From: a virus
Length of the DNA stretch: 23,308 nt
Direction: 5' to 3' (one strand)
Virus record (IMG/VR): IMGVR_UViG_3300035698_002267
Span: 1-23,308 of that record
Notes under the pieces: model-generated
The model's database searches: none
Told to the model about the DNA's origin: nothing
The model's input: only the letters and a program-made list of their open reading frames with translations
Translations under genes and position numbers: made by a program
Shown here: piece after piece, positions 4,396-19,766 of the stretch
Numbering within the stretch: position 1 is the stretch's first letter
Layout of the letters: every line of letters starts with the position of its first letter

Positions 4396-4694
4396 TACCA
4401 ATTCCACAGGTCACGGAAGAACAAAAAGCTGAAATCAAGGAAGTGAAAACTATGCCTGGGTGGAAGCACATAATGGAACCCATAGTCATAGCAATAGACT
4501 TAAAAGAGAAGGCTTTGGTTAATTGGGTATTTGAGCGGGATACAGACGACCAGATAACAAGGCGGTCTGTAGGTAGATACGAAAAAACACAAATAGAGCT
4601 CGTGCTATTAAAAGAGTTTCGGGCTTTTATACAAGAGGGAGGAGTGATATTCGAAGAGGAAGACATGGAAGTATTCGAGGACACATCTAAATAG
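4392..4694 (+). CDS. Small acidic protein between portal and scaffold, unknown function
   Basis: A 100-residue protein whose ATG overlaps the portal stop by four bases (ATGA), so it is probably translated by coupling to portal. The centre (MPGWKHIMEPIVIAIDLKEK, then LVNWVFERDTDDQITRR) looks like a compact alpha/beta fold. The C-terminus is strongly acidic (FEEEDMEVFEDTSK). No family is recognised. Small genes in this slot of phage genomes often assist head assembly, but nothing here shows a mechanism. Confidence 0.75.
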   Translation: MIPIPQVTEEQKAEIKEVKTMPGWKHIMEPIVIAIDLKEKALVNWVFERDTDDQITRRSVGRYEKTQIELVLLKEFRAFIQEGGVIFEEEDMEVFEDTSK

Positions 4695-4799
4695 ATCTTT
4701 TACATATCGTGCCGAACTGAAGGCTTTACCCAGTCTCTATAGTACCTTTTCGTGATTGTAGGTGTTGTAGGAACTGGATTAAGCTTTCATGCTTATTTC

Positions 4800-4826
4800 C
4801 AATCTTTTAAAGTAGAAAAAAGATTG
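4800..4826 (+). other. Perfect 9-bp inverted repeat upstream of scaffold
   Basis: CAATCTTTT (4800-4808) and AAAAGATTG (4818-4826) are exact reverse complements separated by a 9-nt loop. It sits in the 172-nt gap between the small protein and the scaffold gene, just before a second hairpin. It could be an RNA stability or processing element of the capsid mRNA, or a protein-binding palindrome. Confidence 0.5.
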
Positions 4827-4828
4827 CG

Positions 4829-4854
4829 CAGGGGTCGCTCCCTGGATATTTTTT
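4829..4854 (+). terminator. Terminator-like hairpin before the scaffold/capsid genes
   Basis: CAGGG (4829-4833) pairs with CCCTG (4840-4844) across a 6-nt loop, then GATA and a T6 run (4849-4854). The stem is short, so termination would be partial at best. Because the scaffold gene begins 13 nt after the T-run, read-through or a downstream promoter must serve the capsid block. A role as a 5' stabilising hairpin for the capsid mRNA is an equal alternative. Confidence 0.4.
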
Positions 4855-4866
4855 AACCCATACAAA

Positions 4867-5415
4867 ATGGATACATCAAAAACAGCAGACAAAACTACTG
4901 GCGAAGCCTCAACACCAGAGGAAATAGCCGCTCAAGAAGCAGAGCAAAAAAATCAAAATCAGGAAGAAGCCTTTAAACGCATCACTGAAGAGAATAAAAA
5001 ACTCAAGGAGGATGCAAAGGCAAAGAAAGAAGGAAAATCTTCGACGGAAGAGAAACCTAAAACTGAGACGCCTGATGTCCGCGAATTAATTCGAGAGGAA
5101 TTAACCGCAAAGACTGAAATGGAGACCAAGGTGGGCGAAGCTCTAACAAAGTACCCTGAACTCAAAGAGCATGAGTCGAAAATCCGGGAGTATCTCAACG
5201 ATGATAGTAGGAAAAATATTCCTATTGACGAAGTCGTGGCGGGTGCAGTCGGGATGGAGAAATTATTGCAGATGGGTGCAGCGATGGGAGCAGAGCGAAC
5301 CAGGGCCACTGTAGAAAGTAGCGCAGGTGGTGATGGCGCAAAAGTTACAACTCAAACAGAAGAGGAGAAAACTGAAGCACAGCACATGGAATCTCTTCCC
5401 GATGAGTTTAAATAA
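4867..5415 (+). CDS. Scaffolding protein (putative)
   Basis: A 182-residue, highly charged protein, probably the internal scaffold that shapes the procapsid and then leaves. It is Glu/Lys-rich and predicted largely helical, with coiled-coil character at residues 15-55 (EEIAAQEAEQKNQ, then EEAFKRITEENKKLKE). A second helical block (VRELIREELTAKTEMETKVG) precedes a Gly-rich patch and a charged C-terminus ending LPDEFK. Low-complexity charged composition and position directly before the capsid genes are how scaffolds are usually recognised, since their sequences diverge fast. The start follows TTTTTTAACCCATACAAA, a C-rich leader shared with its neighbours. No protease is visible in this window. 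Confidence 0.7.
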   Translation: MDTSKTADKTTGEASTPEEIAAQEAEQKNQNQEEAFKRITEENKKLKEDAKAKKEGKSSTEEKPKTETPDVRELIREELTAKTEMETKVGEALTKYPELKEHESKIREYLNDDSRKNIPIDEVVAGAVGMEKLLQMGAAMGAERTRATVESSAGGDGAKVTTQTEEEKTEAQHMESLPDEFK

Positions 5416-5430
5416 TTTAACCCCATAAAA

Positions 5431-5835
5431 ATGGCAGCAGATTTTAAAGCTATTTCGGAGTTCACAACAATACAAGCAACTATTGCATCAGCAACTGTTG
5501 TTGAAGCGGGAGACCTTGTCGAATTAGACACAGGACTTATCGTGAAAGCAACAGCCACTGGTACACAGCTTGCATTCGCCCCCCAAGGATCAGCAGATGG
5601 TGAGACTATCATCGAGATCACAAAAGGGCACGTTGAACTACTTGGAACAACAGACGCGGACTTCGCGGTTACTGATAAGATGCTTGATTGCGATCTTGTC
5701 GGTACAACCACGCAGCTCATAGACATTGGAACATCTTCAACAAATGTTTTAATGGTCGCAGCAGACACAGAAGCAGGTACTGTAGGCTCAAAACTTAACG
5801 TTAAAGTCTTCATCAACAAACCAATCACTTTCTAA
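5431..5835 (+). CDS. Capsid decoration-type protein (putative)
   Basis: A 134-residue beta-rich protein 15 nt after the scaffold and 12 nt before the capsid gene. The stretch VEAGDLVELDTGLIVKATAT resembles the small beta-barrel of head-stabilising or decoration proteins of the gpD/DUF2190 type, in which a Gly-Asp-Leu-Val turn is followed by repeated short strands. Ala, Thr and Val dominate and there is no cysteine-rich or catalytic motif. In many phages such a protein sits beside the capsid gene and binds the expanded shell. The leader TTTAACCCCATAAAA is the clearest copy of the C-rich start motif. The family assignment is by style and position only. Confidence 0.6.
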   Translation: MAADFKAISEFTTIQATIASATVVEAGDLVELDTGLIVKATATGTQLAFAPQGSADGETIIEITKGHVELLGTTDADFAVTDKMLDCDLVGTTTQLIDIGTSSTNVLMVAADTEAGTVGSKLNVKVFINKPITF

Positions 5836-5847
5836 CCCCTTAATACA

Positions 5848-6780
5848 ATGGCTACAGCAGACTTTGTTCAACAGACACAAAAAGGGCTTAAGAAATCCTT
5901 TGATAACGGTGCCAAAAACGCACTTGATAAATGGATCAATCTTCCGATCTTTAATGTACAAAACAATGACGAGTGGGCATCAATCTTTACTTCTACTGAA
6001 GCATTCAGTGGAACAAAAAAATTGACTGAACACGAAACACCGCCACTAAACTCTCTAGGAGATGGTTACTCAATGACTATTGAAAAAGAGCGTTTCGGTA
6101 ACGGATACGAAATCACAGAAGACGATCAACAGAAAATGGGCGACGGATCTACTAAAGTTAGCGCGTACTTAACACGACAACGAAACCGATGTCTACGAGA
6201 CACTAAGAGCTACTTTGTAACAGAGATCCACAAATTCTTGAACTACGCATTTGCTACAACTTATTTTGCAGCACCGGATGACGCAGCTCTTTGTGCTGAT
6301 ACTCACACATGGAAAACAGGAGAGACATTCGACAACTATATGACATCAGCTTTTAGCATGACAGCAGTTGACGAGGCTCTTGAGCAAGGATCACAGATCG
6401 CAGACGCAGTTGGAGAAGAGATGCAGATTGATTACGATACAATCGTTGTACGTAAAAATACTGAAGCTCACCGAGACGCAATTCGTCTCTTTGCAGAAGG
6501 TGTTACACCGACCGCCGTTGACGATGTAAATATATATGAAGGAACAATGAAAATTGTTGCTGATCCACATATTACATACGCTAACAAAAATTACTGGTTC
6601 TTGTTTGATACCAAAATACGAGAGGAAAACCCTCTATATGTAGGTATTGGAAAATACCCAGCATTTACGTCACCCAAAATACAGGACAACGAATCAGTTC
6701 GTCAGAATGTTACTGGTTACTTCATGCAAGGTATCATAAACATGCCATGGCAAATCTTGGGTAGTCCAGGTACTACTTAA
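5848..6780 (+). CDS. Major capsid protein (HK97 fold, Mu gpT-like style)
   Basis: A 310-residue protein that should form the icosahedral shell. Position after scaffold and decoration gene, size, and composition all fit. Residues 71-93 (GDGYSMTIEKERFGNGYEI, then TEDD) match the E-loop/strand region seen in Mu gpT-type capsid proteins, and the segment VDEALEQGSQIADAVGEEM marks the long spine-helix region. The C-terminal half (IVVRKNTEAHRDAIRLF, then MKIVADPHITYANKNYWFLF) has the P-domain/A-domain pattern of a value-reading strand followed by the K/N-rich turn. No N-terminal prohead protease target is obvious. Codon use is rich in GCA, ACA and CGA, as expected for a strongly expressed gene in this genome. 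Confidence 0.85.
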   Translation: MATADFVQQTQKGLKKSFDNGAKNALDKWINLPIFNVQNNDEWASIFTSTEAFSGTKKLTEHETPPLNSLGDGYSMTIEKERFGNGYEITEDDQQKMGDGSTKVSAYLTRQRNRCLRDTKSYFVTEIHKFLNYAFATTYFAAPDDAALCADTHTWKTGETFDNYMTSAFSMTAVDEALEQGSQIADAVGEEMQIDYDTIVVRKNTEAHRDAIRLFAEGVTPTAVDDVNIYEGTMKIVADPHITYANKNYWFLFDTKIREENPLYVGIGKYPAFTSPKIQDNESVRQNVTGYFMQGIINMPWQILGSPGTT

Positions 6781-6820
6781 AAACCAATTGCATAATGTAC
6801 TGGTGAGACTCCAGGCTACT

Positions 6821-6842
6821 GGGGAGGCGTAATTCCTTCCCC
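6821..6842 (+). other. Hairpin after the major capsid gene
   Basis: GGGGAGG (6821-6827) pairs with CCTTCCCC (6835-6842) with one G/U pair. An alternative, mutually exclusive stem CCAG-GCTA-CTGG covers 6811-6822. There is no T-run after either, so this is more like an mRNA 3'-end stabiliser or processing site than a terminator. It fills most of the 82-nt gap before the beta-helix gene. Confidence 0.4.
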
Positions 6843-6862
6843 CAACTTAAAACAACTTTAAA

Positions 6863-7783
6863 ATGGCAACAAAAAATTCATACCACGTTTCTAATGGAGG
6901 TGACCCAATAGAGGTTATTGACAAAGACGGAAACATACGAGGACAAGGAACATCTGGAACTACATATTATGTAGATGGAAACTCCGGTTCAGATGGGAAT
7001 AAGGGTAAAAGCTGGAGCAGAGCATTTAAAACGCTAGCTTATGCATTTGCAGCAAGTCACGCAGATATTGCCAGTGGTTCAAACCGTCGGGCACGCCGAA
7101 ACCGAATCTATATCGCTGGAGACAGCTTTATTGAAACACTAATAATCTTCCCACAGAAAACGGACGTTATTGGTGTAGGTTCAATGAACGGGTTTACGAA
7201 AACATCTATTGAAGGTAATCACGCACCAGTTAATGCTGGTATAGGATGCCGATTTTACAATATTCAATTTGAGCCAACAACAGCAGCAGACCTTATGACA
7301 CTTACGGGTGCTTGTTGGGGAGCAGAGTTTCACAACTGTGATTTCTTGGCTTACGGTTCAACTTCAACACTGACAGCTACTGGTGGTATTAAAACTACTG
7401 GCTGTAGAATGTTAACGGTTCAAGATTGCGAATTTTTAGGTACTTTTGCAAACGAATATATTGATATTGCAGCAGGAGCTATTGATGGAATGACAATCGT
7501 AGGAAACACAATGACTGGTGGTGCTGATAACGGTATCATGGTTTCTGGAACAGGAACTATAGTCACTGGACGAAGAGGAGTAATTGCGAACAACATGATT
7601 CAATGTGCTGACATCTTTATTGATGTTAACTCAACGAGTGTGTTTAACGTAATGAACAACACATGTATTAGTGGAGAAGCATTGGGGTCAGGCTCTTATG
7701 TTATCGACCTTACATTTGCTTGTAACAACGTAGTAACCGGAAACGATGTAAGTGCAACTATTCCAGTTGGGTCTTCATCATAA
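6863..7783 (+). CDS. Right-handed beta-helix protein in the head module
   Basis: A 306-residue protein of the pectate-lyase-like parallel beta-helix class. Residues 35-60 (YYVDGNSGSDGNKGKSWSRA, then FKTLAYA) match the common entry sequence of these helices (YYVD.N.GSD.N.G.SW..AF.TL..A). The rest shows rung-like repeats rich in Asn, Thr, Gly and Val (GMTIVGNTMTGGADNGIMV; GVIANNMIQCADIFIDVNST; FNVMNNTC). The first 32 residues (a VSNGGDPIEVIDKDGNIRGQ segment) precede the helix and may attach it to the virion. I see no convincing catalytic cluster, so binding or capsid dressing is more likely than polysaccharide cleavage. It lies directly downstream of the capsid gene, far from the fibre genes, which suggests a head-associated role. 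Confidence 0.7.
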   Translation: MATKNSYHVSNGGDPIEVIDKDGNIRGQGTSGTTYYVDGNSGSDGNKGKSWSRAFKTLAYAFAASHADIASGSNRRARRNRIYIAGDSFIETLIIFPQKTDVIGVGSMNGFTKTSIEGNHAPVNAGIGCRFYNIQFEPTTAADLMTLTGACWGAEFHNCDFLAYGSTSTLTATGGIKTTGCRMLTVQDCEFLGTFANEYIDIAAGAIDGMTIVGNTMTGGADNGIMVSGTGTIVTGRRGVIANNMIQCADIFIDVNSTSVFNVMNNTCISGEALGSGSYVIDLTFACNNVVTGNDVSATIPVGSSS

Positions 7784-7799
7784 TTTTAACCCCTAAACA

Positions 7800-8141
7800 A
7801 TGACAGACTTTACACAACAACTCACCAACTACTTAGGAGAACCATCAACACAAGGAGAGGTATCCATGGACGAGAAAGGAAAGAAGAAAGTAAAAAAACT
7901 CCCGGTCACCATCCGACGATGTGCTTACTTCGCACTACTGGATATAGCAGATCTACCAATGGGGCTTGAGAACAAGCTCAATAACGCGGAGTCACATCAA
8001 AAACGATACCATCTTATGAAAAAGATAGACGCAGACCCCGAAAATGTTGACTTAACTCCAGAAGAAAAGGAATTACTAATCACGCTTCTACCGTTACGGT
8101 TTGATGTTGTGATCGTAGGACAAATAATGGATTTACTATGA
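7800..8141 (+). CDS. Small phage protein, possible assembly factor
   Basis: A 113-residue protein between the beta-helix and neck genes, with the leader TTTTAACCCCTAAACA. The C-terminal half (RYHLMKKIDADPENVDLTPE, then EKELLITLLPLRFDVVIVGQ) follows a pattern I associate with small phage head/tail assembly proteins: a K-R-Y...KI helix, a D-L-T-x-E-E turn, then a VVGQ...LL ending. No named family can be given with certainty. Its stop overlaps the next start (ATGA), suggesting co-translation with the neck protein. Confidence 0.65.
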   Translation: MTDFTQQLTNYLGEPSTQGEVSMDEKGKKKVKKLPVTIRRCAYFALLDIADLPMGLENKLNNAESHQKRYHLMKKIDADPENVDLTPEEKELLITLLPLRFDVVIVGQIMDLL

Positions 8142-8914
8142 AATATACAGCCTTCGCACAACTTTTCAGAGAAAAAGCACTAGGTCAAAATGACACCACT
8201 GCTATTTCAACCGCAACCATCTCGGCGTATGCTAATCTTGCAAAAGATAGACTCGCTAGAGAGATAGTTACACACGCCAGTAATGGAGCAGGATACTTCT
8301 CGTTCGACCTAACCACCGATTTAGTGGAAGATCAGAGGGAGTATGCCTTCCCGGGTGATGTGGTGAAAAACTTGATAATGGTGCAGGCTTATATTGACAG
8401 CAAATGGCGCCGAGTATATCCATTTGATGTAAATACCTACCGCGTGGCTGGTAACACGGATAAGCCTTATTACGGTTTTCAGCCAACGGAGTCCTTTTCG
8501 GGCGCCACAACGGATGAGACAACTATCACGGAGCAATTCTCTGATACATATCCCCAGTTCTTTGAAGATGGGAGAACAATTACAATTTACTCAGAAACGA
8601 TTGATGCTGTAACGGCGGGGCTAAAGCTAAAAGCATTAATCTATCCAAAAGATTACGAAGACACAGACTGGAGCCTTACGGATGATATGTCTGCTCGCTC
8701 TACCACAACAAGCACAGCGATGCCTAGGCAGTCACACGATGTCCTTCTGACAAAGGCAGTCATAGATTACAAGGAAACCAAAGGAATAGCCTTGACTGCT
8801 TTTGAGATGACTTATAACGACCAGCTGAGGGAGTTGTTTAGCTCACTTAGTGATATAAACGACGACGAGGCAATCACAGCCGTGACTCCGCTGGAGGACG
8901 GATATAATTTTTAA
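8138..8914 (+). CDS. Head-tail adaptor (neck) protein
   Basis: A 258-residue protein, likely the ring that binds under the portal and closes the head. The N-terminal helices (TISAYANLAKDRLAREIVTH) are followed by LVEDQREYAFPGDVVKNLIM, the D/Q-R-x-Y-x-x-P-x-D-V pattern found in many phage neck adaptors. A beta-rich insert and the late helix RQSHDVLLTKAVIDYKETKG complete that architecture. Its rank after the capsid gene corresponds to gp4 of P22-like phages. The four-base overlap with the preceding gene supports an operon. The name rests on pattern and position; another neck component cannot be excluded. Confidence 0.6.
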   Translation: MKYTAFAQLFREKALGQNDTTAISTATISAYANLAKDRLAREIVTHASNGAGYFSFDLTTDLVEDQREYAFPGDVVKNLIMVQAYIDSKWRRVYPFDVNTYRVAGNTDKPYYGFQPTESFSGATTDETTITEQFSDTYPQFFEDGRTITIYSETIDAVTAGLKLKALIYPKDYEDTDWSLTDDMSARSTTTSTAMPRQSHDVLLTKAVIDYKETKGIALTAFEMTYNDQLRELFSSLSDINDDEAITAVTPLEDGYNF

Positions 8915-8923
8915 TCATTAAAG

Positions 8924-9472
8924 ATGAAAGCAAAACTATCAACTAGAGACAATGTCCGGATTGTCCACCTCAGAAATGGACACAAGCAGGAAGTCTTCCA
9001 ACATAACTGGTTGGGGCGATTATTCATGCGTGCAGGAATAGATAATAAATCATCACTATTTGGAAAACCTGTTCTTGAGATGAATATCTGGAACCAAATA
9101 ACAACCGCGGGGAAAGCAGCGGCACCAGACAGGCTTTCAGGCATCACAGCGATGGCAGCATTTACATATGTTGCGGTGGGGACAGGGACCACACCAGTTG
9201 ATCCCGCAGACACAACATTGACGGCAGAAATAGAAGACAGCGGTCTTGTTAGAACAACGGGAACTGTTTCAGCTGAAACAACAACTACCACTGATGATAC
9301 AGCACAGGTGTTATATAAATGGGAATCAATCACCGACACAAAAGCTGTTACAGAAGCAGGATTATTCAACGCCTCTTCTGCGGGAACAATGGTTGCTAAC
9401 CAGGTTTTTTCTGCAATCAACGTAGTAAGCGGGGACACATTACAGATTACGTGGAAAATTGATTTTAGCTAA
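8924..9472 (+). CDS. Virion structural protein, beta-rich
   Basis: A 182-residue protein of a type I recognise from many phage late regions but without a settled function. Residues 81-182 run TYVAVGTGTTPVDPADTTL, a Thr-rich stretch, AVTEAGLFNASSAGTMVANQ, then VFSAINVVSGDTLQITWKID. The block GTGTT...TEAGLFNA...FSAINVVSGD.LQITW is the family signature. It is probably a tail or surface beta-sandwich. The N-terminal 60 residues contain basic and aromatic residues (HNWLGRLFMRAG) and could be the virion attachment part. The gene is 2 nt from the next, a jelly-roll/stalk protein, so the two are likely made together. Confidence 0.65.
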   Translation: MKAKLSTRDNVRIVHLRNGHKQEVFQHNWLGRLFMRAGIDNKSSLFGKPVLEMNIWNQITTAGKAAAPDRLSGITAMAAFTYVAVGTGTTPVDPADTTLTAEIEDSGLVRTTGTVSAETTTTTDDTAQVLYKWESITDTKAVTEAGLFNASSAGTMVANQVFSAINVVSGDTLQITWKIDFS

Positions 9473-9474
9473 TC

Positions 9475-10467
9475 ATGACAACAACCAGCTTCTCAAAATC
9501 AGCTTCATACTATGGCTATGCCCAGCGCGCAGAGACCTGGCATGAGGTGCCAAATGTTCCAGAAGATAACTGGGACCGCTTGCGTAGCAATGATGGTACG
9601 AGCAGCTCTACATCAGTCTTCAGGGCTGGGTGGTATGAAGGAGATTCATATGACAGATGGATGAATAGGGCGTTTGTGGCTTTTGACACATCAGCACTAC
9701 CAGACGGAGCAGTGATAAGCGCTGCCTACGTAAGAGTATCTGGAACCTGTACCGCACAAAACGAAGCCGGTGATTTCTGTATTTGCTCAGGAACTCAACC
9801 GAGCACTGTTATCACGGCAAATTACCAAGGACACGTTACAACAACAAAGTATGGTACCTGGGATGGGAGTGCCGGTGCACAAGTTATGACAAATGATGAC
9901 TTCACGCTTGATGCAACGGGTCGGGCGGCAATAAGCAAAACGGGTTATACGAAATTTTGTTTTAGACACGAAGACGACCAGGATGATGACTACACACACA
10001 TGAGTGCTGATGATCATAACTACATAACACTAACCTCATTAACATTGTATGTCACCTATCATGCCGCAGAGACAAAATCCCTCACAGAATCGATGTCTAT
10101 GGGTGATTCTATTTCGAAGGCCATTGCCATTATTAAAGAAGAGTCAATAAGCCTCACTGCTTGGATAGTGGGACACGGGGATAATTACGCAAAAGAATTA
10201 ACAGGATCACTAACTATCGCTGCGACCCTTATAACAAGCCATCTTAGGAATTTTAGCAAGATCCTAACAGAGTCGTTGATAATGGGTGTTGGTATTAAAA
10301 AGTGGGTAAACGGGATACTTGCAGATATTTGGGCAAAGGTCGCCAAGACAACCGCGTCCTGGGTCAAAGGTGCAATGACCAGTGCAACCTGGACTAAAAC
10401 CGCAACGACAGAAGCAACCTGGTCTAAAGAAGAGAAACCTCTGGCAGACGATCCAGAGTGGAGTTAA
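9475..10467 (+). CDS. Two-part display protein: jelly-roll-like head on a repetitive stalk
   Basis: A 330-residue protein. Residues 1-197 form a beta-rich head: the segment RAFVAFDTSALPDGAVISAA and the closing strands YITLTSLTLYVTYH resemble DNRLRE/CBM-type jelly-roll domains that often bind sugars. Residues 199-275 switch to a repeat built on L-T-E-S (ETKSLTESMSMGDSISK at 199-215; ILTESLIMGVGIKKW at 263-277). The end (279-320) carries W-x-K units about ten residues apart (IWAKV, SWVKG, TWTKT, TWSKE). The same C-terminal plan occurs in the propeller protein two genes downstream, whose head is unrelated. Likely a virion surface or adhesion protein, with the head for binding and the stalk for attachment. 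Binding target unknown. Confidence 0.65.
   Translation: MTTTSFSKSASYYGYAQRAETWHEVPNVPEDNWDRLRSNDGTSSSTSVFRAGWYEGDSYDRWMNRAFVAFDTSALPDGAVISAAYVRVSGTCTAQNEAGDFCICSGTQPSTVITANYQGHVTTTKYGTWDGSAGAQVMTNDDFTLDATGRAAISKTGYTKFCFRHEDDQDDDYTHMSADDHNYITLTSLTLYVTYHAAETKSLTESMSMGDSISKAIAIIKEESISLTAWIVGHGDNYAKELTGSLTIAATLITSHLRNFSKILTESLIMGVGIKKWVNGILADIWAKVAKTTASWVKGAMTSATWTKTATTEATWSKEEKPLADDPEWS
10069..10425 (+). repeat. LTES/W-K stalk region, copy A (coding repeat)
   Basis: The C-terminal part of the jelly-roll display protein. LTES-like units occur at residues 203-206, 222-225 (KEES), 242-245 (LTGS) and 264-267, about 20 residues apart, then four W-x-K units. It aligns by eye with copy B (11995-12411), both at the opening ETK-LTES-S-GDSI-K and at the closing ILTE...MG...IW-K...TTAS-W-K. 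Confidence 0.65.
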
Positions 10468-10481
10468 TTAACAACCACATA

Positions 10482-11195
10482 ATGAATAAATTAAAAAAAG
10501 GCGAATACGGCGCACAGCCATTCAACATCATACAGGAGTCAGAGATACTGTCTAAAGCAGACATTGACTCATTATTACCTTTAACAGAGGAACTTCAAGA
10601 GACTTTTAAGAAGTCACAAGTGTTTAGAACAAGAACAGAGATGGAGGTTTCTGTGTTAAACGATATAAAACACCCTACACATGCTTCTAAGTATTGGCAA
10701 GCAGTACGAGAACAGAATGTAATGTTTACGGAGATGGTTATGCTGTCTTATGAATACAGGAAAAACGCAATCGAGATAAAGAAGCTACAAAGAGACATAC
10801 AAGCAGAGCAAGATGATTTAGAACGAGAATTAACACAAATAGAGATAGAGAAGAAGTTGTTTATACAGAAGGGACAAGAAAAAGTAGCAAAAGACAGAAT
10901 TAGAGAAATTAATGAATGGTCTGATATAAAAGCAAGGGAAGCAAAACACATGACGGCTACCGAGTTAGGTAGCGTTGACAATCATCAGTTAGTGAGTTAC
11001 ACAAAACGATGGTTGCGTCAAGCAGCTACAGCAGGGAACAGTGGTTCTCCGTCTGAGAATCAAAACCTAAGGGGACAGCTTAACGCCGGGCTAATGGCAT
11101 GTAGGGAACAAGGAATACTAGAGGAGGTGTTAAAGGATGCACCAGAGAAGATAAAAGCCGAAGTAGAAAAACAATATTTACAACTAAAAGACTAA
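10482..11195 (+). CDS. Helical coiled-coil protein between the two display genes
   Basis: A 237-residue protein, mostly helical. The frame also opens at a GTG at 10458 inside the previous gene, but the ATG at 10482 follows TTAATTAACAACCACATA, the usual start context here, so it is preferred. The central segment (EIKKLQRDIQAEQDDLEREL and on to about residue 140) is a strong heptad-type coiled coil, followed by a mixed charged region and a helical C-terminus ending KAEVEKQYLQLKD. I recognise no family. Sitting between two genes that share a stalk, and 1 nt before the second, it may bind that stalk or help it trimerise, but this is inference from position only. Confidence 0.75.
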   Translation: MNKLKKGEYGAQPFNIIQESEILSKADIDSLLPLTEELQETFKKSQVFRTRTEMEVSVLNDIKHPTHASKYWQAVREQNVMFTEMVMLSYEYRKNAIEIKKLQRDIQAEQDDLERELTQIEIEKKLFIQKGQEKVAKDRIREINEWSDIKAREAKHMTATELGSVDNHQLVSYTKRWLRQAATAGNSGSPSENQNLRGQLNAGLMACREQGILEEVLKDAPEKIKAEVEKQYLQLKD

Positions 11196-11196
11196 C

Positions 11197-12414
11197 ATGG
11201 CAGGTACATGGTCCTCTGGCGGAAACTTAGCTACAGCGAGATATGGTCTCGGTGGCTGTGGAACCCAAACCGCAGGATTATCATTTGGTGGTTATGCGGG
11301 GTCTGACTCAGCAGTAACGGAGGAATATAATGGTTCTTCGTGGTCGGCTGGGGGAAATTTATCAACAGCGAGACGGTTCTTATCTGGCGCGGGAACCCAA
11401 ACTGCCGGGTTATCATTTGGTGGTTATGCTGGTGATAGATTCGTAACAGAAGAATACGACGGAAGTAGTTGGAGTGCTGGAGGAAATTTAGCAGATGGTA
11501 GGTCTTATACTGGTGGATGCGGAACTCAAACCGCTGGGTTATCATTTGGTGGAACCGTTGGAGCTGTATCTAATAAAACAGAAGAATATAACGGAACAGC
11601 ATGGTCTGCTGGAGGTAATTTAGCTACAGCAAGGTCTGATCTAGCTGGGGCAGGAACCCAAACAGCTGGGTTATCAATCGGTGGATACACTACGGCAAAT
11701 ACTAATAAAACAGAAGAATATAATGGAACAGCTTGGTCGAGTGGCGGAAACTTAGCCACATCAAGAAAACAATTAGCTGGAGCTGGAACCCAAACCGCTG
11801 GGTTATCATTCGGTGGAAGGGTGGTATCAGCGGTAGCCACAACAGAAGAATATAACGGAACAGCGTGGTCTGCGGGGGGAGCGTTGTCTACGGCTAGATA
11901 CGCTATGGGTGGTGCCGGAACTCAGGCGGCTGGGTTATCGTTTGGTGGTGTTATTTCTACCACATCAGCTATAACAGAAGAATATTCACAAGGAGAAACA
12001 AAAACATTAACAGAATCCTTTTCATTGGGGGATAGTATATATAAGGGGGCAGCCGTGATAAAAACAGAATCACTAACAATGGGGGCAACATTTAGCGGCC
12101 TTTTAATATTCTTAAAGGTATTAACAGAATCTATTACAATCTTTGATAGTGTGATAAAGTCCGCCGGGTTTAACAGGATTCTAACAGAAGCTATTTCGAT
12201 GGCAGGGAATGTGTATAAAGGGGCTGGGAAAGCCTTATCAGGCGCTATTACAATGGCAGCCAATGCGGTGGCGGGTCTTGAATACTCAAGGATCCTTACA
12301 GAGACTATTACAATGGGAAACAAGCTAGGGAGAAAAATAAATGGGCAGCTACAAAGTATATGGACTAAGATAACGACAACAGCGTCTATTTGGACTAAAA
12401 CACCTAAAACATGA
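11197..12414 (+). CDS. Six-repeat kelch-like propeller on a repetitive stalk
   Basis: A 405-residue protein. Residues 1-264 are six copies of a unit of about 44 residues with the consensus W-S-A-G-G-N-L-x-T-A-R, G-A-G-T-Q-T-A-G-L-S-F-G-G, a variable stretch of 5-9 residues, then T-E-E-Y-N-G. Kelch-like repeats with this consensus form beta-propeller blades, and six is a complete ring. Residues 267-405 are the LTES-type stalk (LTES or variants near 271, 289, 309, 329, 347 and 367), ending in IWTK and ASIWTK. The stalk is homologous to that of the jelly-roll protein two genes upstream. The start follows directly on the coiled-coil gene (GACTAACATG), and the stop overlaps the next gene by four bases. 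Likely a receptor- or glycan-binding virion protein; the ligand is unknown. Confidence 0.75.
   Translation: MAGTWSSGGNLATARYGLGGCGTQTAGLSFGGYAGSDSAVTEEYNGSSWSAGGNLSTARRFLSGAGTQTAGLSFGGYAGDRFVTEEYDGSSWSAGGNLADGRSYTGGCGTQTAGLSFGGTVGAVSNKTEEYNGTAWSAGGNLATARSDLAGAGTQTAGLSIGGYTTANTNKTEEYNGTAWSSGGNLATSRKQLAGAGTQTAGLSFGGRVVSAVATTEEYNGTAWSAGGALSTARYAMGGAGTQAAGLSFGGVISTTSAITEEYSQGETKTLTESFSLGDSIYKGAAVIKTESLTMGATFSGLLIFLKVLTESITIFDSVIKSAGFNRILTEAISMAGNVYKGAGKALSGAITMAANAVAGLEYSRILTETITMGNKLGRKINGQLQSIWTKITTTASIWTKTPKT
11209..11985 (+). repeat. Six tandem kelch-type coding repeats (about 135 bp each)
   Basis: Near-identical DNA blocks such as GGGTTATCATTTGGTGG and GAAGAATATAA recur at about 135-bp spacing within the propeller gene. 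Identity is high enough at the DNA level for recombination between blades. The stretches between the GLSFGG and TEEY blocks differ in every copy. Confidence 0.85.
11995..12411 (+). repeat. LTES/W-K stalk region, copy B (coding repeat)
   Basis: The C-terminal stalk of the propeller protein. It has six LTES-like units about 18-20 residues apart, against four in copy A, and fewer W-K units at the end (two, against four). The difference in unit number suggests that stalk length changes by gain or loss of units. Confidence 0.65.
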
Positions 12415-14039
12415 GAAACTGGAATCTAGGCGGTATCGGGGCCAGTAAAAGACAAGGGAGTGATAATGCAAGCTACACTCTCATTAATTGCGATATACAT
12501 GGTGATCCGGGGGTGTTAAAATGCCACCCCACAGTGGAGACAGATGGATCAAGCGGTGATCCGCCGGACGAAGCGATTGTGTCCATAGTAGAGGTAACAG
12601 AGGGGGATACAGACATCCCTGCTTCATACCACTTCGGTATTGGGGGAACTGTTTGGAAACGAACCAGGGCAGATGTATGGTCTGAGTTAGGAACCATATC
12701 GGAAGGGACTGAGTATGGGGCAATAAATGACGCGAAACTATTTGATGGAGATATTTATTATTCAATGCAAAGGAGGATCGGTAAGTATACACCAAACACT
12801 ACCTGGGCGTCAGCAAGAGATGACGACTTTGCTGCTATAGAGTTCGACTTAGAACATCCTTTACTGGTTGTGCAAAACGATTTATATGCAGGTCACACCA
12901 ATCATATAGGAAAGATAACCCCGTCGTGGCAAGCTGCTACAACAGGATTTCTTGATACTGATGATGCAGCCGATCAAGAGGGAACACCCAATATAGTACG
13001 AATCCCTGCAACAGGGCATGGCCTGGTTGCTGGAGACAGTATAATCATAACGCTAACGACTAACTATAACGGAAACTTTGTTGTTAAAAACGTATCAGAC
13101 CTAGATCACTTTGACATAGAGTCTGCTTTTGAGACAGAGACATTTGCAGACACTGATGTATTCACTGTCCAAATGCCAAACGCCTTATTATTTGAAGACG
13201 GATATGTGGTGGAGTCGTTAGGACAAATGAGTCGCTACTTAATAGTGGGCGCTCATAAGATGGGAGCACCCGTAAATTCTATTATAGGATTTGCAAAGAT
13301 CTTTAAGTGGGATCTAGTGAGTAATACCTATTCATCAGAACAAGAACTAAAAGACACAGGGATCAGCGCCATGATTGAGTACAATGGAGGGCTGCTTCTG
13401 AGTGTGGGCTTAGACGGAGACCTGTATAGCTATGACGGGAACTTCGCCACTAAGTTTAAAAAAATACCAAACACAACTGCTGGGGCTACAAAGATCAGAA
13501 AGAATGCCTGGAGCGCGTGGAAGGGACAGACATTATTAGGGGTAGGCGGAACCAAGGGGATATATTCCCTCGGGTCTTTTGATGCAGGATATCCCGAGGT
13601 ATTAAGCCGCCCGATAACACTGGGGTCAGCAATTGCTAATTCCGATATATACAGTATATCACGGGTGTCAGGCGAGGCGGAAGGTGTTTACTCAGAATCA
13701 CTCCTAATGTCCTATAAGATAGGTGTTGGAGACTATTTCAAGAAACTATCAACCGACCTAGGCACAGCAGAGACTGAATCAATGCTTATGCCGCTCGTGG
13801 ATAGCAAGGGTCGCAAGGTCACGCCGAGCCCGCGGGTGGAATACGAGAGTTATCCGTCAGGAACGACGATAGCACTCTATGCATCCATAAACAGGGGCGC
13901 ATATGCTGCGCTTACACTCGAAAAAACAGTGGAGAACGTGCTAACTAGCAGAACCATAACAAACGCGCGAGAGATCCAGTATAAACTCGTTTTAACGCCT
14001 AATGGCGCAAGTACTCCTATAATTGAATTCTATGGATAA
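12411..14039 (+). CDS. Tail hub-like structural protein
   Basis: A 542-residue beta-rich protein whose ATG overlaps the propeller gene's stop (ATGA). The N-terminus (GGIGASKRQGSDNASYTLIN) and the repeated short strands across residues 70-190 resemble podovirus hub or stabilisation proteins that fold as propellers. Residues around 192-248 (RIPATGHGLVAGDSIIITL, then TNYNGNFVVKNVSDLDHFDI) match a small beta domain that recurs in phage tail proteins: GHGL-GD-I-NYNG-F-V-D-FDI. The C-terminal part is a beta-sandwich-like region ending IIEFYG. By rank it corresponds to the gp10-type hub of P22. No enzymatic motif is seen. Identity as hub against another tail component is uncertain. Confidence 0.55.
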   Translation: MRNWNLGGIGASKRQGSDNASYTLINCDIHGDPGVLKCHPTVETDGSSGDPPDEAIVSIVEVTEGDTDIPASYHFGIGGTVWKRTRADVWSELGTISEGTEYGAINDAKLFDGDIYYSMQRRIGKYTPNTTWASARDDDFAAIEFDLEHPLLVVQNDLYAGHTNHIGKITPSWQAATTGFLDTDDAADQEGTPNIVRIPATGHGLVAGDSIIITLTTNYNGNFVVKNVSDLDHFDIESAFETETFADTDVFTVQMPNALLFEDGYVVESLGQMSRYLIVGAHKMGAPVNSIIGFAKIFKWDLVSNTYSSEQELKDTGISAMIEYNGGLLLSVGLDGDLYSYDGNFATKFKKIPNTTAGATKIRKNAWSAWKGQTLLGVGGTKGIYSLGSFDAGYPEVLSRPITLGSAIANSDIYSISRVSGEAEGVYSESLLMSYKIGVGDYFKKLSTDLGTAETESMLMPLVDSKGRKVTPSPRVEYESYPSGTTIALYASINRGAYAALTLEKTVENVLTSRTITNAREIQYKLVLTPNGASTPIIEFYG

Positions 14040-14411: not shown

Positions 14412-17264
14412 ATGCCAGATATAACAGGAGAAGCATTCAGAAAGCTCACGCCAGATCAGCAAAAGGCTGAAAGGGCTCGGGTAGCCACGCAGCCACCGAC
14501 TGCAAGTCCTACAAACGGGGCACCAGCTTTAGCAAATGTTCCAGCTGGACCACAGGGTGCAAATGGAGGGCTTCCAAACGTTGCCTACGGACCACAACCG
14601 AAAGGGAAAAGAAGTCCCGATTATGGATTCAGAGAGACACAAGTGAGCGGAGCTGCTCCATTCTTTGATCCACGTAAGCGTGGTGGATGGGGATTAGCAG
14701 GGCCAGCGGGGTCTCAAACAAAGCCAACGCCTTTTACAGCTAATACGCTAGAAGAGGCCACTGATTTGATTAAAGGAGAGACTGCGACCGATCCAACTGT
14801 TCCTGTGAGAGATGGCGAAACGCCTCCAACACCAGGAGTGGAGCCGATACCTACGGCAGGGGATGATATCTCGGCGATAAACAAGCTCGCACAAGAGAAA
14901 ATAGATGCTATCAAGCAAGAACCTACACTTTTAGCTGTACAGCAAGCAGAGATCGCGCAGATCAGCGCTCAAGCAGCGAGTGAGGTAAAAGCCATTGAGG
15001 CAGAAGAGAAAATGAAAGCTGATGCTAAGAAAAAGCTCGGCGATGATTATAATGAAGATAAGTTGCAGGAAAAAATTACAGCTGTAAGGGGTATAGCTGA
15101 AGAGCAGGGCGTTAGTTTGCAGATAGCTGAGGGCATTTGGACTAGACAGAATAAGGAGCGGGCCTCTTTGGATTCTGGTGATACTGCTATATACGACAGA
15201 ATAGTAGACCAATTTGCAACCCAGGGCTTTGATCCTAACCAGGCTTTTAATGTAGCCGTTAAGGAATATGAGCAAGACGGGTTTGATGAAGATGATCTAG
15301 AGAAAGCAAAAGCAGCGGTTGCTAGTCGCTTTGGCGACAACGCAGCGGATTACATGGAAGACGAGTTTATGATCAATACACGAGGGATAGATAGAAATGT
15401 TCAAGAAGGACGACGAGATTTATTAGATGCAGAGAAATTGGGAGCCACTGTTCGGGCTGGAAAAGGAGGGAAAGCTGTTACAGAGGCCTATCTAACACAA
15501 GTAATGAATGCAGATCCTTCATTAATTCCGGACGCATTACAAAAAATCTTTGCAAGCGATGCTACAGACGACGCCATGGAGATAGCAGGTGCATTTGCAG
15601 CTGACTTCTATGGTAATGTTGACTCTGAGATAGGGGACGCAGATGAAATGATGACTGCGGCACGATATATAGGAGGAGAAGGGACAACGGCAGAGAGAGA
15701 TGCCTTTATTAAGAACAAACTCTCGTATGACGCGCTAACCGGCGATGATAAGACAGCAGACTGGTTATATAAGAACGGAAAGATGACTCCTGAAGAGGAA
15801 ACAGCATACTTAACGAGAATGGGACAACTAGCCGCGGCAGGAAGAAAGGGAGCAGCGGTGAGTGGAACAGGTCCTGTTGATGTTGGTGCAGGAACAGCTT
15901 ATCCAAACGTTACAACGGCAGATGTGAGGGCTGCTAAGAAATTCCTGGTTGATGAGTTTGGATCACGATATTTATCGCAGAATCCTGACACACTAGGAGA
16001 GTTCCTGGAAGGAATAGATGCAGGAGAAACCCTGGATTCCATGGGTGATGAGTTCCGTGCAAGACAGTTGTCGGAGGCAACCCAGCGAAATGAGATGTAT
16101 CGACAATCATTTAAAAACGTGGGGCTAAAGATGAACGGGGAAGCAAATAGAAAAGACTTTATAGATGAGGCTGATCGGCGTTTCGAGCGAGGGGACATCA
16201 AGGGGACGCGGGAATGGCTAAAAGATGGAGCCAGGTCTTCTGCGGGTGTTGCAAAGAAAAACGAAATAATTGGAGCAGAGTATACGGTTAAGTTCCTGGG
16301 AGACATCCAAAGCGAAATGGAGGCATACGAGAAAGCAGGGGGTAAGTTAAATATCTTCGATGGAACAAAGGAGCAAATAGCCTCTAAGGTTGGTATGGTT
16401 GTTGACGCGGACCGAAGACGAATAGCAACCAAGATCCAGGCAGCGATCCAAGGATATAGACGGTCTATGTCCGGTGTTGCGTTCAGCGTACCAGAGTCCG
16501 AGGAATACAAAGCAATGTTCCCTGACATCACAAAGAATATGGACCTGAATAACGCAAATATAGATGCCCTAACAGAGGTAATGGGCTTACAGCTAGATAA
16601 CTTCTATTCATTATCAATAGGAACAACCCCCTATGATATAATCTTCAATGGAGGAGCAAATCAGAGCGTTTCTACCGAAATGGAATCAGATCCAAATGCG
16701 GGTCCTAGCGATGAAGACATACAATCAATGAACTTTGGTGAAGCAAACAAAATACTGTCATCATCAGACCGTTCGGGTTATAGTGATGCGGTATTAGAGC
16801 GTGCAATAGCTGTTTTAGAGGGAGTCCCTCAGCAATCAGATGAATTCGCACAAGCCGGATACACAGGAACTCCGCTTGGGACACAGTCTGAATACGAGAT
16901 GAAAACAGCTGAAAGGATATTGCGAGATGGACCACCACGAGAGGGTCGTAAACAGTGCGGAGAGTATGTTAACGATAAGCTCGGATTAAGTGGTGCAGAA
17001 AGAATGGGCGATGATCTCCCTAGCAAACAAGACGGGCCTAATTACGTATCTATAGCAGACGGAGGACAGCCTGCAGTGGGTGGTTACTTCGTAATGGACA
17101 CAGGAAGCGAGGCTGGACACGCGGGACTTATTACAGGGGTAACAAAGGATGGTATCTATATAGCGGATAGTAATTATGATGACGCAGAAGGATATAGACC
17201 AAACACTTTTATCTCAAAGAAAGACCCTCAATACAAGAAAATCACAGGATTCGGAATAGCTTAA
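14412..17264 (+). CDS. Internal/ejection protein with C-terminal CHAP-like cell-wall hydrolase
   Basis: A 950-residue protein. Residues 1-150 are Pro/Gly/Ala-rich and probably disordered; residues 150-800 are charged and helical, with a coiled-coil-like patch near 195-225 (EEKMKADAKKKLGDDYNEDK). The last 110 residues look like a CHAP or NlpC/P60-type papain-fold domain: catalytic Cys849 in RKQCGEYVND, His903 in SEAGHAGLITGV and Asn921 (or Asp919) in IADSNYDD, in the right order and spacing. Such domains cut peptidoglycan peptide bonds. In a long late-region protein this suggests a virion-borne enzyme that opens the wall as DNA is injected, and not a free lysis enzyme. Equivalent in rank to the ejection proteins of P22. 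The start follows AAACCATTAACA. Confidence 0.75.
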   Translation: MPDITGEAFRKLTPDQQKAERARVATQPPTASPTNGAPALANVPAGPQGANGGLPNVAYGPQPKGKRSPDYGFRETQVSGAAPFFDPRKRGGWGLAGPAGSQTKPTPFTANTLEEATDLIKGETATDPTVPVRDGETPPTPGVEPIPTAGDDISAINKLAQEKIDAIKQEPTLLAVQQAEIAQISAQAASEVKAIEAEEKMKADAKKKLGDDYNEDKLQEKITAVRGIAEEQGVSLQIAEGIWTRQNKERASLDSGDTAIYDRIVDQFATQGFDPNQAFNVAVKEYEQDGFDEDDLEKAKAAVASRFGDNAADYMEDEFMINTRGIDRNVQEGRRDLLDAEKLGATVRAGKGGKAVTEAYLTQVMNADPSLIPDALQKIFASDATDDAMEIAGAFAADFYGNVDSEIGDADEMMTAARYIGGEGTTAERDAFIKNKLSYDALTGDDKTADWLYKNGKMTPEEETAYLTRMGQLAAAGRKGAAVSGTGPVDVGAGTAYPNVTTADVRAAKKFLVDEFGSRYLSQNPDTLGEFLEGIDAGETLDSMGDEFRARQLSEATQRNEMYRQSFKNVGLKMNGEANRKDFIDEADRRFERGDIKGTREWLKDGARSSAGVAKKNEIIGAEYTVKFLGDIQSEMEAYEKAGGKLNIFDGTKEQIASKVGMVVDADRRRIATKIQAAIQGYRRSMSGVAFSVPESEEYKAMFPDITKNMDLNNANIDALTEVMGLQLDNFYSLSIGTTPYDIIFNGGANQSVSTEMESDPNAGPSDEDIQSMNFGEANKILSSSDRSGYSDAVLERAIAVLEGVPQQSDEFAQAGYTGTPLGTQSEYEMKTAERILRDGPPREGRKQCGEYVNDKLGLSGAERMGDDLPSKQDGPNYVSIADGGQPAVGGYFVMDTGSEAGHAGLITGVTKDGIYIADSNYDDAEGYRPNTFISKKDPQYKKITGFGIA

Positions 17265-17277
17265 TAACTTTAATAAA

Positions 17278-19077
17278 ATGTCAACACTAGCAGAATTAAA
17301 AGCAGAACTGGCAGCACGGAAGGAGACTGCGCAGAGCCCGGAGGCCATAACCCCAGCTGCTGCAGTTCCTACACCAACAGCTACGCCAATAGCAACACCT
17401 GCTCCTAGCGGGGTAGATGTTAGTCGATTCCAGACAACAACACCTCCTCCACCACCTCAGGGAGAGGGAGAGGAGCCTGATGTGTTTAGTAAATTCGGAT
17501 CATCTGGTGCGAAGGCAAGTAAGGCAGAGAAAGGGGCTCAGACGGCCGACTTACACCAGAAAGGCGCATTAATGGGGCTAGAGCCTGAGGATATGACAAC
17601 TGGCAACGCCCAGTTCAAGGCCGCATTGCAAGACCGAATACCACCAAAGCCAACGGTTTGGGGCGGAATAAAAAAGCATGCTAAGGCGGCTTTAGGCGGT
17701 ATTAAAGAAGGAGCCCAATCAGTACATGATTCAACTATCTTCGCGGGGAAGGCGATAGGAGACTTTGTTGGAGGAGCATCTTATGATTTTAGAGCCACGA
17801 AAGACGTTAATGATAGATTCGATAAACAAAAAGAGATATTAACTAAAGCTGGTGGTCCGTCTATAGAAATGGACTTACTGGTTCTGGAACAGGATAGACA
17901 GAAAGCCCTAGAGGGAGCTATGATGGAAGTATCAGACGATGATGCCAAGGCTATCGCAGCGGATTTAGGGCGGGCAGTTGTACAAGTAGGAACGGCAATA
18001 GCTGGTCCTATGTTAAAAGCTCCTGCAGCGGTGGAAGCACTGGGGCCTGTGGCTAAGTTCCTAGCAGCTCGCGGGTTATCTGCGGCAGAAGCAGGAACGG
18101 CTGGGTTTACAGAAGAATCATTACGTGTAATAGCTAATGGGGGGACTAAGGCAGAGGCATTGAAGGCAGGAATGACAGGTGCCTTATGGGGAGCCGTATT
18201 CGGAGCCGTGCTAGGAGGAGCTCCGGGAAAAAAGGGGAAATCAATTAGGAGCGCAAAAAAAGCACAAGGCATCGCCTCGGAATCAGCCACTTCGTTGAAG
18301 AGTCTCCGGAAAGGGGTTGCAGAGGGGGCTGGCATAGAGATAGATACCCCTGGTAAATGGAAGGAATTCTTTTTCGGGAAAAAGGCGCCCTCGAGACCAG
18401 CAAGCGACGCGGTTAAACGCGGGATAAGCGATTTGGCAGAAGGGGCGCAAGAGGTTCCTACGAATCCGGTTAAATTACATGACGCAGCTAAGGCGCGGGG
18501 TATAAAGGTTGGTAAAGAGCTGAGACCCGAGATGGCAGATGTCGGGCTTGACACAAAGATAAGACCGGGTGGCATTGGCTCCAACAAGGGTAAGCTAAAA
18601 GAGGTAGCTGATTCTATTAGGAAAGATATTTTAGAACAACCCTCGCTACTCATGAAAGAGGCTGATAAAAAGAAGCTAGGAAAGATCTTAGACAAGATAG
18701 ACAATGCGACAACCTTAGATGAGGTTTGGGATGCAAGGATAGAATGGGATGGGTTACAGACAAATGGAATAAAACAAGCCACCAGTCTATCGGATAGCAT
18801 TACTCAGCACAGGAATGATATCTGGACCACGACGCGGGATATTATGAATAATATAATGGATGAGGTAGCAGAACAGGCCGGGAAGCCGGGTGTTGCTAAG
18901 AAATTCCAGCAAATGAGAGACTTATTCGAAATACAAGAGAACATTATCGCACGAATAGGTGAGTACGCGAAGCAAACAAAGGGAATCCTTAAATCCAAGG
19001 CAGCAGCGGCAACAGTCGTAGGGGTGAGCGCAGCAAGCTATGTAGGAAAGAAGATCAAGGATGTTGTAAAACCCTAA
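17278..19077 (+). CDS. Internal/ejection protein with membrane-active segments
   Basis: A 599-residue protein, 13 nt after the CHAP protein. The N-terminus to about residue 65 is Ala/Pro/Thr-rich with a PPPPP run. Glycine/alanine-rich hydrophobic segments lie near residues 229-270 (GRAVVQVGTAIAGPMLKAPA), 296-316 (AGMTGALWGAVFGAVLGGAP) and at the C-terminus near 574-599 (AAAATVVGVSAASYVGKKI). The remaining regions are charged helices (EMDLLVLEQDRQKALEG; RDLFEIQENIIARIGEY). This mix of amphipathic helices and small-residue hydrophobic patches is typical of podovirus ejection proteins that line a channel across the host envelope. No enzymatic motif is seen. It probably acts together with its upstream partner, being packaged in the head and ejected first. 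Confidence 0.65.
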   Translation: MSTLAELKAELAARKETAQSPEAITPAAAVPTPTATPIATPAPSGVDVSRFQTTTPPPPPQGEGEEPDVFSKFGSSGAKASKAEKGAQTADLHQKGALMGLEPEDMTTGNAQFKAALQDRIPPKPTVWGGIKKHAKAALGGIKEGAQSVHDSTIFAGKAIGDFVGGASYDFRATKDVNDRFDKQKEILTKAGGPSIEMDLLVLEQDRQKALEGAMMEVSDDDAKAIAADLGRAVVQVGTAIAGPMLKAPAAVEALGPVAKFLAARGLSAAEAGTAGFTEESLRVIANGGTKAEALKAGMTGALWGAVFGAVLGGAPGKKGKSIRSAKKAQGIASESATSLKSLRKGVAEGAGIEIDTPGKWKEFFFGKKAPSRPASDAVKRGISDLAEGAQEVPTNPVKLHDAAKARGIKVGKELRPEMADVGLDTKIRPGGIGSNKGKLKEVADSIRKDILEQPSLLMKEADKKKLGKILDKIDNATTLDEVWDARIEWDGLQTNGIKQATSLSDSITQHRNDIWTTTRDIMNNIMDEVAEQAGKPGVAKKFQQMRDLFEIQENIIARIGEYAKQTKGILKSKAAAATVVGVSAASYVGKKIKDVVKP

Positions 19078-19109
19078 AACAGTGCAGAAAAAGCAACCTT
19101 TACTTAACA

Positions 19110-19115
19110 TATAAT
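19110..19115 (+). promoter_or_regulatory. Possible -10 element (TATAAT)
   Basis: An exact TATAAT lies in the 55-nt gap before the 75-residue gene. The bases 17 nt upstream (near GAAAAA) do not resemble TTGACA, so any promoter would be weak or need a phage factor. In AT-rich leader sequence this hexamer can also occur by chance. Confidence 0.2.
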
Positions 19116-19132
19116 TATTAACCACCACACAA

Positions 19133-19360
19133 ATGGCAGTACAAAAATTCAAACGAGGCGGTAAATGGGTAACACTGGAGAAAGCACAAGCGCTTAGGAA
19201 CCCAGTAGAGCCAGAGCCGATTGTAGTAAGCAAGGGACCGGTGATCAACGAAGAGCTAGAAACGCTGAAAAGGGAATGTGATGAAAAAGGGATCAAGTAT
19301 CATCACGCAAGTGGTGTGAAGAAGCTTCAAGAGCTTTTAGCAAGCCCCCCTATAATTTAA
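19133..19360 (+). CDS. Small protein with HeH/SAP-like C-terminal motif
   Basis: A 75-residue protein that starts at ATG after ATTAACCACCACACAA. The first 20 residues are basic and aromatic (AVQKFKRGGKWVTLEKAQAL). Residues 41-70 (EELETLKRECDEKGIKYHHA, then SGVKKLQELL) follow the helix-extended-loop-helix pattern seen in HeH/SAP-like modules of phage proteins. These modules often bind nucleic acid or cap other domains. Function unassigned. It opens a run of five small genes before the fibres. Confidence 0.6.
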   Translation: MAVQKFKRGGKWVTLEKAQALRNPVEPEPIVVSKGPVINEELETLKRECDEKGIKYHHASGVKKLQELLASPPII

Positions 19361-19370
19361 ACCCAAAAAG

Positions 19371-19766
19371 ATGACACGATATATCAAGCACCTCGAAGCC
19401 ATCCCTGCTATCGGAGCCCTAAATGCTATAACAGCAGGACTCAGAGTAGCGGATTACGATGACGTTAGTTTCGCCCTAGCAGGAGATACTACGGCGGTAT
19501 TCACGGTAACGGTCTTCGGATCGATCAGTAAAGCATGTCCAGACTTCACGGCGGCAAAATCTGCCACAAACGTATATGACGCGATTGTTTGTCAGGACTA
19601 TGAAGACGATGCAGCAAAGGCGGGGGATACAGGTATTCCTTTTACAGAAAACGACGTAATGCAGTTTTCAGCCAGTGTCTCAGGACTAAGCTGGATCGCA
19701 TTTAAAGTAACGGCCTACACAAGTGGTCAGGTTACACCGAGTCTAACTGGTTACAACAACGCATAA
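19371..19766 (+). CDS. Small beta-sandwich structural protein
   Basis: A 131-residue, Thr/Ala/Val-rich protein with a regular strand pattern (DDVSFALAGDTTAVFTVTVF; DVMQFSASVSGLSWIAFKVT) and two cysteines (in KACPDF and IVCQDY). The pattern suits a virion surface or tail-tip domain. No family name is certain. The leader TTTAAACCCAAAAAG is another copy of the C-rich start motif. The stop and next start overlap by one base (TAATG). Confidence 0.6.
   Translation: MTRYIKHLEAIPAIGALNAITAGLRVADYDDVSFALAGDTTAVFTVTVFGSISKACPDFTAAKSATNVYDAIVCQDYEDDAAKAGDTGIPFTENDVMQFSASVSGLSWIAFKVTAYTSGQVTPSLTGYNNA

Follow-up and report, generated by a model that had tools for sequence, protein, structure and literature searches.

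Two proteins encoded in a stretch of virus DNA, A and B, carry unrelated N-terminal heads on homologous repetitive stalks. The stretch analysed, referred to throughout as the window, is 23,308 nucleotides long (IMG/VR record IMGVR_UViG_3300035698_002267). The genes of A and B occupy a slot shared with other phages, heads of both kinds are found elsewhere on other stalks, and the stalk occurs together with a gene for a gp80-like protein. A and B are probably adhesin fibres, each consisting of an exchangeable N-terminal head, a stalk working with the gp80-like protein, and a C-terminal anchor on the tail. As fibre proteins that bind receptors, in a tailed phage whose gene order is like that of short-tailed ones, they would be oriented with the C-terminus towards the virion, the conserved anchor docking on the tail near the adaptor and the nozzle. 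The stalk would be more than a spacer, probably a rope stringing gp80-like subunits in the manner of the GP4 chain fibre. With two different heads on the same kind of stalk, a single virion could show two binding specificities; recombination within the slot would replace, as modules, either the heads or the stalk with its partner. Such a fibre would thus combine reversed polarity with two layers of exchange, one of heads alone and the other of stalk plus partner.

Heads, stalks and anchors of the two proteins

The window contains terminase-, portal- and capsid-like genes, an adaptor-like gene, the region of A and B, a nozzle-like gene and genes for internal-virion-type proteins. On the plus strand, an adaptor-like neck protein of 258 aa (8138..8914; phmmer matches in relatives, role assigned from position) is followed by the gp80-like protein of 182 aa (8924..9472) and then by A (9475-10467) and B (11197-12414), open reading frames whose coordinates are exactly those given in an earlier reading of the DNA without database searches (the sequence-only reading). 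That reading had the pair side by side. Both genes are present, and another record (L054) has two stalk-anchor proteins side by side, so that such a pair is not unique to this stretch. However, A and B are not adjacent: a 245-residue protein (10458..11195, plus strand), whose GTG start overlaps the end of A, lies between them. The downstream border is formed by the gene of a propeller-like 'nozzle' protein of 542 aa (12411..14039, plus strand), a role likewise assigned from position.

In A, the head comprises residues 1-198 (9475..10068), the stalk spans 10069..10302 and the C-terminal anchor 10303..10467; in B, head, stalk and anchor span 11197..11994, 11995..12336 and 12337..12414, respectively. 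The stalks consist of units of ~20 residues. Four are counted in A (at residues 203, 221, 242 and 264, two of them degenerate) and six in B (at residues 271, 289, 309, 329, 347 and 367), matching the earlier estimate of about four against six. The homology claimed for the stalks is confirmed by a local alignment score of 159 (mean 36, sd 6.7 and maximum 75 in 2000 shuffles) and by a translated search with A, which retrieves the stalk of B (E=1.3e-11). These short units abound in S, T, L and I, and shuffling leaves the repeat structure uncontrolled, as would suit a resemblance between low-complexity repeats without common origin. Such a resemblance is hardly credible, given the distance of the score from the shuffle maximum, a non-repeating NG-x4-IW.K motif that comes after the stalk at the same place in 13 of 13 stalk proteins, and the pairing of the A and B stalks in a tree (support 92/89). 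The pairing fits a stalk duplication within the lineage, followed by head replacement.

The homology of A and B runs past the stalk and takes in a distinct anchor of W-repeats at the C-terminus, which is better conserved than any other portion of the protein. The anchor consensus is NG-x4-IW-x-K (or, more narrowly, NG-x4-IW[T/S]K), followed by 10-residue W-x-K (W-T-K) repeats; the N, G, W and K are invariant in an alignment of 13 stalk proteins. A has VNGILADIWAK and then the 10-residue W-x-K repeats, and B has INGQLQSIWTK..IWTK. Stalk units are spaced 18 or 20 residues apart in 58 of 63 cases, with hydrophobic or charged residues at odd positions and Ser or Thr at even ones, suggesting an extended strand with one contact face. 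The pattern reads as the signature of a strand that would tolerate insertions of two residues and not of one. A PDB profile search with the stalk gave chance matches only, and a monomer structure model of B was too poor for use (pLDDT 42).

The heads, described earlier as unrelated, score 43 against each other, compared with a shuffle mean of 42.7. The jelly-roll-like fold given for head A in the sequence-only reading is not confirmed: this head has no match in Pfam, PHROG or PDB, and its structure model is unusable (pLDDT 39). The six-repeat propeller proposed for head B is borne out by six kelch-like repeats of ~44 residues, also visible in the DNA at a spacing of 129-132 nt, and by matches to phrog_27227 (1.5e-54) and, in PDB, to the designed six-bladed propeller SAKe6FR (E=0.0045); there is no Pfam Kelch match at E<=1. 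Homologues of head A are present in L060 (5484-7274, E=5e-10), on another, ATFSIP-type stalk, and in L054 (5004-6098, 1.4e-8), and a homologue of head B in L066 (2.9e-20) is likewise borne by an ATFSIP-type stalk. As both heads are found on a different stalk type elsewhere, they have really been exchanged. The only relative found of the 245-residue protein (L066 3785-4549, E=4.2e-17) lies just upstream of the kelch-headed fibre gene, and thus this protein may travel with kelch heads.

A gene slot shared by related phages

Scans of viral contigs with single sequences, namely A and each of the stalks, returned no relatives. Relatives were reached by synteny, using a portal-profile scan (ten loci) and a nozzle-profile scan (31 loci, 30 unique records) of IMG/VR. 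L004 was reached through the capsid gene; its portal shares 66% and its nozzle-like protein 47% identity with those of the window. Relatives of the nozzle-like protein are present in 30 records, one of them annotated as 'putative isomerase ybhE'. The slot is bounded by adaptor-like (5') and nozzle-like (3') genes in 30 other IMG/VR phage records, the adaptor-like gene being kept directly upstream in nearly all related records. One or more anchor-ended proteins are encoded just before the nozzle gene in 22 of the 30 unique records, a count that takes in L048 and four already known records.

The single protein in the slot of L004 combines the same stalk and anchor with a third type of head, unrelated to those of A and B. 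Besides this type, the N-terminal parts found in the slot are LamG (L045, L053, L062, L011 and L063, in the last of which the LamG domains sit one ORF ahead of the anchor-bearing ORF), glycine-rich (Gly_rich_2; L046, L050, L061), kelch (L066) and A-type (L060). Six headless records keep the C-terminus with only a short Tyr/Gly tag (L010, at 19663; L022, at 9813; L056; L057; L068; L069). The stalk is found with several unrelated heads or with none, and not always with one kind. Together with the occurrence of both heads of the window on a different stalk elsewhere, this supports the head exchange that had originally been inferred from the two proteins. Profile comparison shows that both stalk types have matching anchors (82%, E=1.1e-5; four controls 0.1-0.2%). 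The notion of the shared stalk as a platform needs modification: a common exchange platform does exist, but its constant part is the anchor plus the slot, because the stalk type is itself replaced together with a partner gene.

A scan with the W-motif as a DNA pattern found only the L004 contig and L022 as real members, and the same pattern gave chance matches only in bacterial and archaeal genomes. The only one of these that fits the W-motif at the protein level, in L032, was rejected as a short minus-strand ORF lacking a stalk. Relatives of the stalk or of head A were not detectable among cultured phages.

Mini-proteins of 58-60 residues in L047 (6055-6231) and L067 (6770-6952) consist largely of anchor-like W/Y-T-K repeats. 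In L063, an ORF with three LamG domains (4690-6894) terminates in FPKRTFLESVSIVEA and the following ORF (6921-7997) opens with MAKFPKRTFLESVSIVD; the two appear to be a split or duplicated stalk gene. The 1161-residue product of L045 4446-7931 has a long SASPSES repeat together with LamG and a propeller-like domain (5.6e-11), shares the W-repeat anchor, and seems to represent a further stalk type. The tag that opens the headless stalk proteins, YGGxxYGSxxYGG, has a similar counterpart (L081 6036-6926) at the end of the repeat protein adjoining the gp80-like gene of Aeromonas phage phiA008. Between the fibre and nozzle genes of L011, L046, L048, L053 and L072, mostly records with the second stalk type, lies a small protein (~90-160 residues) in which a membrane segment and a coiled coil are likely.

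The stalk and its proposed gp80-like partner

The gp80-like protein matches phrog_5417 (2.4e-16) and, below the curated Pfam cut-off of 27 bits, PF23140 (E=4.1e-5; best among relatives 6.5e-6), which is matched by eight of its 14 relatives. PF23140 is gp80, a protein of fibre I of the Ralstonia podophage GP4. Among 31 records, the LTES-type stalk and the gp80-like gene coincide perfectly, with both in 13, neither in 18 and no exceptions; the chance of this is 1/C(31,13)=4.8e-9, uncorrected for kinship. The nozzle tree requires the LTES-plus-gp80 label to change seven times, and well-supported branches force at least six of these changes, so that kinship alone does not account for the pairing. 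The second, ATFSIP-type stalk goes with a 140-residue gene in 7/7 records; this gene is also present in L050, where the stalk is assigned to neither type. Comparison of the gp80-like and 140-residue partner proteins revealed no sequence relation, and PDB profile searches with the gp80-like, adaptor-like and nozzle-like proteins gave chance matches only. The stalk and its gp80-like partner appear to form a second exchangeable unit beside the heads. Among the repeat proteins encoded upstream of gp80-like genes in cultured phages, the repeat-profile match is significant only in phage Simon (E=0.0017); in CF418P1, EBPR siphovirus 1, ewii_LB8 and phiA008, the repeats next to the gp80-like gene are similar by eye, without significance.

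As gp80 is the chain-fibre protein of GP4, the stalk probably forms a beta-strand 'rope' that functions together with gp80-like subunits, and the pairing of stalk and gp80-like gene together with the strand-like spacing suggests that the rope seats these subunits. A more specific model is put forward tentatively, as possible rather than probable: each unit of the rope would seat one gp80-like bead, and rope and bead would be swapped as a matched pair and the N-terminal adhesins independently of them. One virion could then carry a single kind of bead on two ropes that differ in their tips. In this model, the second stalk type and the 140-residue protein would make up another rope-bead system, parallel to and independent of the first, on tails of the same kind.

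The stalk might instead be an ordinary self-standing shaft, for example a trimeric one, and the gp80-like gene a mere non-binding neighbour in the exchanged cassette. Phage fibres usually have trimeric shafts, and close linkage within one slot can alone make two genes travel together. However, stalk type and gp80-like gene changed jointly at least six times, without exception, whereas the heads in the same slot vary freely; the second stalk type has its own neighbour gene in every one of its seven records; and Alishewanella phage LSH1 bears an analogous module of adhesin and gp80-like protein (PMC13243795). An ordinary shaft is therefore rather unlikely, and a rope that works with gp80-like subunits is the reading preferred here.

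Orientation and comparison with known fibres

Tail fibres of the T4, T7 and lambda type have a conserved virion-binding end and an exchangeable receptor-binding end. Compared with these canonical fibres, the ends are reversed here: the 13 stalk proteins show not the pattern of N-terminal attachment (conserved N-terminus, variable C-terminus) but its reverse, apparently a new variation on known modular fibres. The W-repeat anchor most likely docks on the tail, since it is the most conserved part, is common to both stalk types and is kept without a head. With the opposite polarity, the variable N-terminal domain would sit on the virion and the W-repeat C-terminus would be a free tip touching the cell. 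Most phage fibres do attach by the N-terminus, and tryptophan-rich repeats could contact membrane or sugar. This orientation is improbable, however, as the conserved C-terminus is common to phages with unrelated heads and persists in the six headless records, and as LamG and kelch are head kinds usual for ligand binding. It also seems quite improbable that A and B decorate the capsid as head fibres. Phage capsids bear adhesins too, and the two genes lie among structural genes, but adaptor-like and nozzle-like genes flank the slot across related records, and the GP4 relative of the neighbouring gp80-like protein is a tail fibre protein. C-terminal docking of A and B on the tail remains the favoured arrangement.

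In GP4, gp80 dimers are reportedly linked by a rope protein, and fibres of this type are said to be chains of gp80 dimers attached to a 15-fold collar. In common with GP4 fibre I, a gp80-like gene lies here next to the stalk gene and accompanies the stalk in every case. Unlike in GP4, the repeats here form one protein with an exchangeable head and a W-repeat anchor. According to PMC13243795, the GP4 protein is a fibril that links an adhesin to the tail nozzle collar. In LSH1, gp34 consists of an N-terminal adhesin domain and a poorly predicted, possibly repetitive C-terminal region, and gp35 beside it is a dimer of the GP4-fibril type (PMC13243795). By description, gp34-gp35-gp36 resembles A or B with the gp80-like gene, an adhesin with a possibly repetitive tail beside a gp80-type protein. 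However, LSH1 is a siphovirus whose module lies downstream of the lysis genes and includes a beta-helix head and an Ig-fold protein (PMC13243795). Head B is homologous to kelch-domain tail proteins, including QHZ54126 of Paenibacillus phage phiERICV (28% identity), in which the kelch repeats come after a tail-collar-like N-terminal part, whereas here they are N-terminal on a repetitive stalk. The present architecture may explain the badly predicted repeat region of LSH1 gp34 and suggests a function for many unannotated repeat proteins of environmental phages, and the strict association of each stalk type with its partner gene offers a testable rule for which parts assemble.

Outside the slot, the protein of the window at 6863-7783 and that of L004 at 10994-11683, after the capsid genes, have only their first 23 residues in common (MATKxxYxxxNGGxPxxVI). 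Their bodies are unrelated, with a whole-length score of 64 not above the 70 obtained in shuffles, and the locus may be another slot for exchange, in this case with attachment by the N-terminus, as is usual. The large internal-virion-type protein at 14412-17264 has a weak C-terminal CHAP match (2.1e-4) where its L004 counterpart (17037-19682) has, by eye, a transglycosylase-like stretch, possibly an exchanged lytic domain. The product of 20669-22084 has two homologous halves (score 102, shuffle maximum 64), each with a terminal ITGDN...LTNFW, and appears to be an internal duplication. A small protein encoded once in the window (5431-5835) has tandem copies in L004 (9173-9574 and 9587-9988).
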